Shown piece after piece: positions 2,225 through 5,425 of a stretch of 21,921 nucleotides of DNA. The stretch lies in IMG/VR virus record IMGVR_UViG_3300044998_000166, positions 1 to 21,921 of that record; one strand, written 5' to 3'. Under the pieces are notes generated by a model, which was not told where the DNA came from, did not search any database, and was given only the letters and a program-made list of their open reading frames with translations. The translations under genes were made by a program, and so were the position numbers. Each line of letters opens with the position of its first letter. The first letter of the stretch is position 1. The stretch comes from a virus.

Positions 2225-5200
2225 ATGGTGCCTAGAATGACCTTTGAAACCCCTTCCGATCTCCCCGAAATCTCCCTGAAAATCTGGGACTCGAAATACC
2301 GGCTGAAGAACTTCGACGGAACTCCCATCGACAAGACACCGAACGACACCTGGCTTCGCGTGGCACGAGCGTTGGCTTCCTGCGAGAGCGACCCGGAGAC
2401 GTGGACTGGCCGGTTCTACGAAGTGATGTCCGAAGGGCTTTTCTCGCCCGCCGGACGGATCATCGCGGGTGCGGGAACCGAACGGCGCGTGACTCTCTCG
2501 AACTGTCTGTCTGGTGAGACTCTGATCCTCACCGCCGAATACGGACTGGTGGCTATCGGCGAGATTGCTGGCGAGAATGTTCACGTTCTCGACGGCAACG
2601 GAAAGTGGGTTTTCGCGCCTATCAACGTCTTCGGCGAGCAGCCTGTAGCGCCGGTCACGCTCAAAGGGGGCTACAACAGCCGCGAGCGCAAGACGATCTA
2701 CGCCACGGCGGGGCATCGCTGGATTCTCGAAGGTGGCGACGAGGTAACGACCGAATACCTCAAGGGAGGCCACGTTCTGAAGACCGTCAAGCGCCGTGAC
2801 GTGGAACACAGTCCCGCCTATCTCGCTGGCGTTCGCCACGGCATCGTCTACGGCGACTGGACGATCACCCGTCCGGACTGCTTCGAGGGCGACTTGGCGG
2901 TCTACAGGAGCCGCGTAACGGAGCGCGATATGGACCTCAAGTCCTTGCCGCCTGCGGGAATTAGCGTCGAGTATTTGACGGGTTTCCTGCGCGGCTGGAT
3001 GGCTGCTAACGGGTGCGCGGGACGTGGCAAGGATTTCATCTCCTGCGGCGCGAACGAAGCAGACTGGCTGAAGCGATACGGCCCGGTCGCGGGCATGGAA
3101 GTTTCGCGCGTTACGAAATCGGGCGACGAAACGAACTACGAGCGTCGGAACAAGGCCGTCTTCAACGTGCATTTCCACCGCTGGACCATGATCGCAGAAG
3201 ACTTCCTGCTGGAAACCCATCGGGAGAAGTTCGAGACCACGACCTATCCTTGGATCGTGGAATCTGTCGGCCCGATGGGCGATCCCGTTCCGGTTTACTG
3301 CCCGCGCGTCACCACCACCGATTCGGTGCAACTCGACCTCGGTATCCACACGGGCCAGTGTTTCACCATGGGGACGATCCCCGACTCGATGGACGGAATC
3401 TTCTCGCATCTTCGGGAAGCCGCTTTGACGATGCAGCAGGGAGGGGGCATCGGTTACGACTTCTCGACGATTCGACCGAAAGGTTCGCTGGTCAAGGGCG
3501 TGGCCGCCGACGCCAGCGGGCCGCTCAGTTTCATGGACTGTTGGGATGCCATGTGCCGGACTGTGATGTCGGCAGGCTCCCGGCGCGGCGCGATGATGGC
3601 GACGATGCGCTGCGACCATCCCGACATCATCGACTTCATCGAAGCCAAGGCCGATCCTGCCCGCCTTCGCATGTTCAACCTTTCCGTTCTCGTTACCGAC
3701 GAGTTCATGGGCGCGGTGGAAGCCGGTCACAACTGGCGGCTTCATTTTGAGGATCGACACGGCAATACGCTGGTCGAGCGCGTCGTGGACGCTCGCGAAC
3801 TCTGGAACAAGATCATGCGTTCCACCTACGACTACGCGGAACCGGGCGTGATCTTCATCGACCGCGTGAACGAGGATCACAACCTCGGCTATCTGGAAAC
3901 CATCGCCACGACCAACCCGTGCGGCGAGAAGCCCATGGGGCCTTACGCCTCCTGCCTTCTCGGCTCGATCAACCTTGCCCGGATGGTCGAGAATCCCTTC
4001 GTTGAGGAGGCTGACATCAAGCTCAACCGTCTGAAGGAAACGGTCGAAACGGCCATCCGGATGATGGACAACGTGATCGAGGTCGGCAACTTCCCCCTGA
4101 AGGATCAGGAGTGGAAGGCCAGAGAGGACAGGCAACTTGGCCTCGGCGTTACCGGGCTTGCCGACGCACTCGCCATGTTCGGCATCACCTACGGGACGCC
4201 GAAGGCTGCGGCGTGGACGGAGAAGGTGATGCGGGCCATCTGCCTCGCGGCCTACGAGGCTTCTGTCTCGCTGGCGCAAGAGAAAGGAGCCTTCCCGAGC
4301 TTCGACGCCGACGAGTTCCTGAAGGAGACCAGGTTTGCGGGCCGCATGTTGCCCGGGCCGCTGAAGCAGAAGATTCGCAAGCACGGTATCCGCAACGGCC
4401 TGCTCATCTCCATCGCGCCCACCGGAACGATCTCGCTCTTCGCAGGCAACGTGTCTTCCGGTATCGAGCCGATCTTCGCTCTCTCCTACGACCGGAAGGT
4501 TCTTCAGCCTGACGGGTCGAAAACGACGGAGCGGGTTGTCGACTACGCCGTGGCCGAGTTTGAGCGGATGTTTCCCGGAAAGCCTCTCCCGCCCCAATTC
4601 GTGACGGCGCAGAACCTCACTCCGGAAGCGCACGTCGTCATGCAGGCCGCAGCACAGAAGTGGGTCGATTCGTCCATCTCGAAGACGGTCAACGTCCCCA
4701 AGGACATCTCGTTTGAGGACTTCAAGGAGGTCTACGCGCTGGCCTACCGGATGGGCTGCAAGGGCTGCACGACCTATCGTCCGAACGACATCACCGGGTC
4801 TGTCCTCTCGGTTGCGGAGGCTCCCGAGGAAGCGCCGAAGGAATCTGCTGAAACGGTTTCGCCTTCTCCGGAAGTCCCCACCGAGAGCAACCTTCTTCCG
4901 GAGCGTCCGGTCAAGGTCACGGGCGCTACCTACAAGATCAAGTGGCCGACTTCGCCTCACGCCCTCTACGTCACGATCAACGACATCGAGGAAGACGGTT
5001 CGCGCAGGCCCTACGAAATCTTCCTGAACTCGAAGAACCTCGACCATCACGCATGGACCGTTGCCCTGACGCGGATGATCTCGGCCATCTTCAGAAGGCC
5101 GCACGACAGCCGGTTCGTCGCAGAAGAGCTTCAGGCCGTGTTCGACCCCCAAGGCGGCGCGTGGCTTGACGGCTCCTACGTTCCTTCCATCCCGGCGTCC

Positions 5201-5425
5201 ATCGGTCGCGTAATCGCGCAGCACATGGAATCCATCGGCTATGGGACTCCCGTCGTCGCCAGCCCTGTGGACACCGACAAGGCCCAGGTCGCAGCGTTGG
5301 GGGCGTCTGGCGTGCTCTCGTCGCGTCGTCTCGGTCCTGCCTGTCCTGCGTGCGGCAGCTTCGACGTGAAAAACGAGTCGGGATGCATGACCTGCCTGTC
5401 CTGCGGCTACTCGAAGTGCGGCTGA
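2225..5425 (+). CDS. nrdJ: class II (B12-dependent) ribonucleotide reductase with intein
   Basis: This gene reduces ribonucleotides to deoxyribonucleotides for phage DNA synthesis in the host cytoplasm, using adenosylcobalamin. The 1066-residue precursor keeps the class II hallmarks. Cys379, the first redox cysteine after splicing, is in CFTMGTIPDSMDGIF. The thiyl-radical Cys566 is in NPCGE, with its redox partner Cys577 in YASCLLGSINL. APTGTISLFAG and the C-terminal Cys pairs, CPACG and GCMTCLSCGYSKCG, are also present. A TSCPD-like domain (TSPHALYVTINDIEEDG) precedes the Cys tail. An intein occupies residues 94-378, and without it the enzyme is 781 residues, normal for NrdJ lacking an ATP-cone. 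The start is uncertain: no clear Shine-Dalgarno precedes the ATG at 2225 or the in-frame ATG at 2237, so coupling to the gene ending at 2216 is likely. A stem-loop follows the stop. Confidence 0.95.
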   Translation: MVPRMTFETPSDLPEISLKIWDSKYRLKNFDGTPIDKTPNDTWLRVARALASCESDPETWTGRFYEVMSEGLFSPAGRIIAGAGTERRVTLSNCLSGETLILTAEYGLVAIGEIAGENVHVLDGNGKWVFAPINVFGEQPVAPVTLKGGYNSRERKTIYATAGHRWILEGGDEVTTEYLKGGHVLKTVKRRDVEHSPAYLAGVRHGIVYGDWTITRPDCFEGDLAVYRSRVTERDMDLKSLPPAGISVEYLTGFLRGWMAANGCAGRGKDFISCGANEADWLKRYGPVAGMEVSRVTKSGDETNYERRNKAVFNVHFHRWTMIAEDFLLETHREKFETTTYPWIVESVGPMGDPVPVYCPRVTTTDSVQLDLGIHTGQCFTMGTIPDSMDGIFSHLREAALTMQQGGGIGYDFSTIRPKGSLVKGVAADASGPLSFMDCWDAMCRTVMSAGSRRGAMMATMRCDHPDIIDFIEAKADPARLRMFNLSVLVTDEFMGAVEAGHNWRLHFEDRHGNTLVERVVDARELWNKIMRSTYDYAEPGVIFIDRVNEDHNLGYLETIATTNPCGEKPMGPYASCLLGSINLARMVENPFVEEADIKLNRLKETVETAIRMMDNVIEVGNFPLKDQEWKAREDRQLGLGVTGLADALAMFGITYGTPKAAAWTEKVMRAICLAAYEASVSLAQEKGAFPSFDADEFLKETRFAGRMLPGPLKQKIRKHGIRNGLLISIAPTGTISLFAGNVSSGIEPIFALSYDRKVLQPDGSKTTERVVDYAVAEFERMFPGKPLPPQFVTAQNLTPEAHVVMQAAAQKWVDSSISKTVNVPKDISFEDFKEVYALAYRMGCKGCTTYRPNDITGSVLSVAEAPEEAPKESAETVSPSPEVPTESNLLPERPVKVTGATYKIKWPTSPHALYVTINDIEEDGSRRPYEIFLNSKNLDHHAWTVALTRMISAIFRRPHDSRFVAEELQAVFDPQGGAWLDGSYVPSIPASIGRVIAQHMESIGYGTPVVASPVDTDKAQVAALGASGVLSSRRLGPACPACGSFDVKNESGCMTCLSCGYSKCG
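2504..3358 (+). other. intein inside nrdJ with degenerate LAGLIDADG region (285 aa)
   Basis: The reductase sequence RVTLSNC...FTMGTIPDS is split after Asn93. The insert begins CLSGETLILTAEYG (splicing block A, Cys1), has TIYATAGHRW (block B, TxxH) and VPVYCPRV (block F). It ends GIHTGQ immediately before Cys379, the +1 nucleophile. The terminal residue is Gln rather than Asn and the usual penultimate His is Gly. The middle holds two LAGLIDADG-like helices. YLAGVRHGIVYGDW (residues 199-212) keeps an Asp, but YLTGFLRGWMAANG (250-263) has Asn where the catalytic acid is expected. Splicing is likely because the flanks restore a perfect NrdJ motif. Endonuclease activity is doubtful. Confidence 0.9.

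Follow-up and report, generated by a model that had tools for sequence, protein, structure and literature searches.

Several inteins in the ribonucleotide reductase (RNR) genes of phages and viruses resemble the one described here. The NrdJ intein of Thermobifida phage P318 occupies the homologous site (FN/C; the slash marks the splice junction), ends in LTGQ/C and, like ours, combines Cys1 with the Trp-Cys-Thr (WCT) triplet, but it is about 26% identical and its own block F His and endonuclease motifs are intact. In Vibrio phages ICP1 and PG07, the NrdA inteins end in LTGQ/C and, like our intein, have Cys1 and a Cys at block F position 4 (F:4), but they lie in another RNR class and at another site, have Phe at B:12 and keep intact endonuclease motifs. 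Phage NrdD inteins (Klebsiella FBKp34, Morganella MP1, Vibrio V6Aob and gut phages) have a TG end, Cys1 plus WCT, and a LAGLIDADG endonuclease, but they end in Asn and have a class III RNR as host. The RNR intein of CIV (IIV-6) likewise has a native C-terminal Gln and splices, according to a review's account of it (Amitai 2004, via PMC4031507); it comes from an animal-virus gene, and we liken it by that published description. Lastly, class 3 inteins (Msm DnaB-1, MP-Be DnaB, Bvi IcmO) carry the WCT triplet, but they are without an N-terminal nucleophile, generally without the class 1 TxxH, and end in Asn; in Msm DnaB-1 the penultimate residue is His, where ours is Gly (PMC6195587, PMC5222942).

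Here we analyse an intein in a class II RNR gene within a window of 21,921 nucleotides, the whole stretch of DNA studied (IMG/VR record IMGVR_UViG_3300044998_000166). It adds one more allele to a type of element that is already known. From sequence comparison, which establishes its site, borders, lesions, conservation and patchy distribution, we conclude that this LAGLIDADG intein at the redox-Cys codon of NrdJ has very probably lost its homing endonuclease and kept a conserved splicing domain that is probably fully active.

An intein at the redox cysteine of NrdJ

The window is a tailed-phage fragment, catalogued as a virus record, with genes for tail, tail-assembly, endolysin, thymidylate synthase and DNA methyltransferase functions. 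Its first 386 positions, at the contig end, consist of an 11-bp GC-rich unit (GCCCTGCCGCC) repeated 35 times; the array is open in all three forward frames and is possibly an assembly end effect.

The open reading frame at 2225-5425 encodes NrdJ (class II ribonucleotide reductase, 1066 aa; TIGR02504 at 566 bits), and a Pfam search matched PF00317 and PF02867 on either side of an insert. This insert spans Cys94 (TGT, 2504-2506) to Gln378 (CAG, 3356-3358) and is followed by Cys+1 (TGT, 3359-3361), which agrees to the nucleotide with the earlier note, where it had been placed at 2504-3358 at the NrdJ redox cysteine. The frame is uninterrupted across all 1066 codons, insert included. Alignment with intein-free NrdJ proteins bears out the borders: Rhodobacter phage RcIroh NrdJ has VTLFN-CFVMGTIPDSM, the corresponding stretch of the window is VTLSN-[285 residues]-CFTMGTIPDSM, and other relatives are also uninterrupted at this codon. 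We take Cys+1 of the intein to be the N-terminal redox-active cysteine of NrdJ, as is established for the RNR family. Because the insertion lies at this cysteine, a working enzyme needs splicing, which supports the earlier claim that reductase activity depends on it. The features are as follows.

2225..2503, + strand: NrdJ N-extein, residues 1-93, ending in ...VTLSN (PF00317 at 14-88; NrdJ_Z; aligns with empty-site NrdJ ...VTLFNCFVMGT)
2504..3358, + strand: intein, 285 aa, Cys1 ... His-Thr-Gly-Gln (intein matches; same-site homologues)
2504..2785, + strand: splicing domain, N-terminal part with blocks A and B (DnaE intein match; AF2 model)
2705..2722, + strand: block B, T68-A-G-H71-R-W73, the class 1 TxxH plus Trp at B:12 (8 family members all have T68, H71 and W73)
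3251..3358, + strand: splicing domain, C-terminal part with blocks F and G (alignment; predicted strands 250-255, 261-267, 274-277 and 280-283)
3299..3301, + strand: Cys266, block F position 4, the C of WCT (shared without exception by 8 family members and by the 14 inteins aligned)
3350..3358, + strand: Thr283 (G:5), Gly284 (G:6) and Gln285 (G:7) (all same-site alleles have TGQ; TG is constant across 8 family members; other phage RNR inteins have TGQ or TGN)
3359..5422, + strand: NrdJ C-extein, starting at Cys+1 (PF02867 at 379-851)

The insert is a real intein with a predicted HINT fold, on the basis of phmmer, Foldseek and same-site homologues among empty-site NrdJ genes. It lies in frame between conserved host residues, is absent from homologues, and has Cys1, TxxH, a cyclisable C-terminal residue and Cys+1. 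A Pfam search of the insert matched no family, and the NCBIfam intein N-terminal model scored below threshold. Insert residues 1-69 matched solved DnaE inteins by phmmer (E 0.003), and a family profile matched solved DnaE inteins at E 6e-7. An AF2 model built from four family sequences has pLDDT mostly 70-90 in the N-terminal splicing part, and Foldseek with this model returned the TliVMA intein 7qsu as its best match (E 1.6e-5), together with PI-SceI and NpuDnaE.

Same-site alleles and their distribution

A complete intein is present at the same NrdJ codon on three more IMG/VR contigs from uncultured phages, L008 (3300045922_000020), L010 (3300020045_009190) and L098/L104 (3300008004_000069), and a fragment of a same-site intein lies on a fourth (L101). 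We retrieved these alleles with a DNA pattern across the C-terminal junction; the window intein used as a protein query against IMG/VR gave no matches, because the conserved stretches of this intein differ. The three complete alleles share the HTGQ/C end and the splicing residues and are 57-73% identical to the window intein. The NrdJ of L098 contains a second intein, at the catalytic NP/CGE cysteine, with an HNH-like endonuclease stretch and an SN/C end.

Occupancy of the site is patchy. Among the 80 closest NrdJ loci in IMG/VR, those that could be assessed were all empty except on one contig (L008/L012). On a tree of C-exteins, the three occupied tips are scattered among empty ones, and three changes are required; the nearest relative of the window on this tree, its sister L011, has an empty site, as does the sister of L010; the uninterrupted L011 sequence is of the form VTLAN/CYTMG. 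This distribution is typical of a mobile intein, and loss could also have contributed to it. Bacterial genomes, scanned both with the alignment of the intein and with the junction pattern, yielded only chance matches and no same-site relative. A search for canonical His-Asn inteins at this NrdJ codon found none, and the LHN/C locus L118 is an empty site.

Probable loss of the homing endonuclease

The endonuclease domain of the window intein carries two lesions.

2819..2857, + strand: first LAGLIDADG-type motif, YLAGVRHGIVYGD, with its acid D118 kept (alignment; predicted helix 104-117)
2854..2858, + strand: junction left by an in-frame deletion of 78 bp, with 26 codons missing (DNA and protein alignment; microhomology)
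2972..3013, + strand: second LAGLIDADG-type motif, YLTGFLRGWMAANG, with Asp changed to Asn169 (codon 3008-3010) and the preceding Thr to Ala (ATDG in all three intact same-site alleles)

The deletion junction, at 2857/2858, directly follows the first acid motif. In the window, YGD is joined straight to the W that follows the missing stretch, 78 bp relative to L008, in which the missing segment is flanked on both sides by CGAC microhomology. L008, L010 and L098/L104 retain these 26 codons and read YGDG, then about 26-31 residues, and (M/L)ATDG as the second motif, which in the window is MAANG with N169. Both the deletion and the Asp-to-Asn change occur in the window only, among the same-site alleles compared. 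The deletion is known from one metagenomic contig, where an assembly error is possible, although the frame is kept.

The earlier note had proposed that the endonuclease is damaged, with Asn in place of the catalytic Asp of the second motif. The substitution is confirmed, and the damage now stands on stronger grounds, since the deletion, visible only against same-site alleles and not listed in the note, adds to it. The second catalytic acid of an active LAGLIDADG enzyme is absent, and the DNA-binding strands after the first motif are incomplete by 26 codons. Given the deletion together with the Asp-to-Asn change, the endonuclease is almost certainly inactive. Structure prediction modelled the window endonuclease domain at low confidence (AF2), and the AlphaFold model of an intact allele (pLDDT 48) was too poor for use.

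Because dS of the endonuclease domain is saturated, we compared amino-acid changes polarised with two outgroups on the window branch and the L008 branch. The counts (window:L008) come to 20:8 for the endonuclease domain, 6:9 for the splicing domain and 57:50 for the C-extein (Fisher, endonuclease domain versus the rest, p=0.06). These counts are suggestive of relaxed constraint on the window endonuclease; pairwise dN/dS of the remaining endonuclease domain was not raised. The splicing domain (dN 0.177, dS 0.761) and the C-extein (0.26/1.07) have similarly low dN/dS, which points to purifying selection on the splicing domain and the exteins.

The Gly-Gln C-terminal end

The C-terminal Gly-Gln recorded in the earlier note is indeed present. 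The suggestion that it is rare and may slow branch resolution is not supported: all four same-site alleles end in HTGQ/C, and these include the ones whose endonuclease motifs are intact. Inteins usually end in Asn, and the His that commonly precedes it is dispensable. LTGQ/C ends the P318 NrdJ intein at the homologous site and the ICP1 and PG07 NrdA inteins, and TGN/C ends the phage NrdD inteins. In published work, native Gln gives better splicing of the CIV RNR intein than Asn does, by the account in the review (PMC4031507), and in the RDF phage intein the native penultimate Gly is optimal, with slower splicing when His takes its place (PMC5050341). We therefore reject Gly-Gln as a mark of decay. 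Because it is invariant at this site, recurs in phage RNR inteins and is functional by published precedent, we regard it as most likely the native and long-established active-site arrangement of the family to which the window intein belongs.

The RNR intein of Caulobacter phage phiCbK (gp112, L102) was considered as a further precedent for Gln and dropped: the text of PMC3556154 gives Gly-Gln, whereas its own N584 and the GenBank record give Gly-Asn. In ICP1 (HQ641347, ORF203, L097), the annotated intein starts one residue late and ends two late; its likely borders are C...LTGQ/C.

Class 1 and class 3 signatures

An alignment with 13 other inteins shows that the window intein carries the whole WCT triplet, with W73 at B:12, C266 at F:4 and T283 at G:5. 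This signature has been described as exclusive to class 3 inteins, which lack Cys1 (PMC3196547, PMC5222942). However, in eight family members, from NrdJ, NrdD and a MobF-annotated plasmid gene, Cys1, Thr68, His71, Trp73, Cys266, Thr283 and Gly284 are all invariant, and thus this family of phage RNR inteins has the class 1 set (Cys1, TxxH, Cys+1) and the class 3 WCT in the same proteins. Since all members have the N-terminal nucleophile that class 3 inteins lack, the family is best filed as class 1 for now, and it could make use of the Cys at F:4. The plasmid member (L093, Skermanella rosea plasmid pSR-4, 4001-4927; Cys1, WCT, LTGN/C) interrupts a gene annotated as a MobF relaxase, at a cysteine within a stretch resembling a primase-type CHC2 zinc finger.

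As far as we checked, the combination of Cys1 and WCT is apparently undescribed; Tori & Perler 2011 may have noted such cases. It bears on a disputed descent. Class 3 inteins have been derived from a phage progenitor that lost Cys1 (PMC3196547), and direct descent of class 3 from class 1 has been argued to be implausible (PMC7664689). The family might represent the phage progenitor type, with either cysteine able to initiate splicing and class 3 arising by loss of Cys1, but we regard this as rather doubtful. By tblastn we found no relative without Cys1 in phages or plasmids, and the resemblance to class 3 may therefore have arisen by convergence. Cys1 together with WCT in phage RNR inteins offers a way to test the idea that class 3 came from phages.

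Proposed history and alternative explanations

We propose that a LAGLIDADG intein entered a phage NrdJ gene at the redox cysteine codon. We infer that splicing joins ...VTLSN to CFTMGT... and restores an uninterrupted NrdJ, so that Cys+1 would serve first as a splicing nucleophile and afterwards as the redox cysteine. The route would most likely involve Cys1 and Cys+1, and then cyclisation of Gln285 within the Thr-Gly-Gln of block G as the C-terminal step, with Cys266 assisting. The endonuclease would have been lost through the 78-bp in-frame deletion and the Asp-to-Asn change, and we infer the order of these events. The window allele would thus have reached the degenerate stage of the homing cycle, with full-length alleles circulating in related phages. 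The earlier view that the element is past its homing stage fits the two independent lesions, the intact alleles elsewhere and the empty site in the nearest relative. The intein may persist because only its precise removal leaves a working gene.

It is conceivable that the intein splices poorly, owing to Gly-Gln, or not at all, and that the phage NrdJ is inactive and decaying. Slow splicing is indeed reported for two archaeal Pol II inteins with a Gln end, those of Pyrococcus abyssi and Methanoculleus (PMC4031507), and the block F His is Asp in the window intein's clade. However, the same Gly-Gln and block F occur in the three intact alleles, the 1066-codon frame is open, and exteins and splicing domain are under apparent purifying selection. 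Moreover, the lesions strike the endonuclease and leave the splicing residues (C1, T68, H71, C266, T283, G284 and Cys+1) untouched, and we consider a non-splicing or poorly splicing intein very improbable. The shortened endonuclease domain might instead have been kept for another use, such as DNA binding, stabilisation of the splicing fold or control of splicing: about 155 residues remain in frame with the first acid, and 107 of 157 are identical to L008. Its retention may merely reflect a recent lesion, and the domain has more changes on the window branch than elsewhere, two of them in an active-site motif, which makes a retained function quite unlikely.

The first splicing step could also proceed through Cys266 in block F, in the manner of class 3 inteins, instead of or besides Cys1. 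The invariance of the full WCT triplet in the family is in keeping with such a route, as is the higher score of the family profile against WCT-grafted gp41-1 (6riz, 22.9 bits) than against native gp41-1 (6qaz, 16.6 bits). Cys1 and TxxH are equally invariant, though, as class 1 chemistry requires, and Cys at F:4 is known in ordinary class 1 inteins (PMC4031507). Together with nearest structures that are not solved class 3 inteins and the empty search for Cys1-less relatives, this leaves initiation at Cys266 unlikely, if worth bearing in mind. We favour loss of the endonuclease from an intein that still splices by the Cys1 route. Full-length and broken endonuclease alleles at one codon, with an empty site in the nearest relative, form a clear pair for the study of the homing cycle.

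A further long/short allele pair of one intein occurs in Thermus phages, in which the NrdJ intein at NP/C is full-length in G20c (L006) and is missing most of its endonuclease domain in P23-45_stolb1 (L005).
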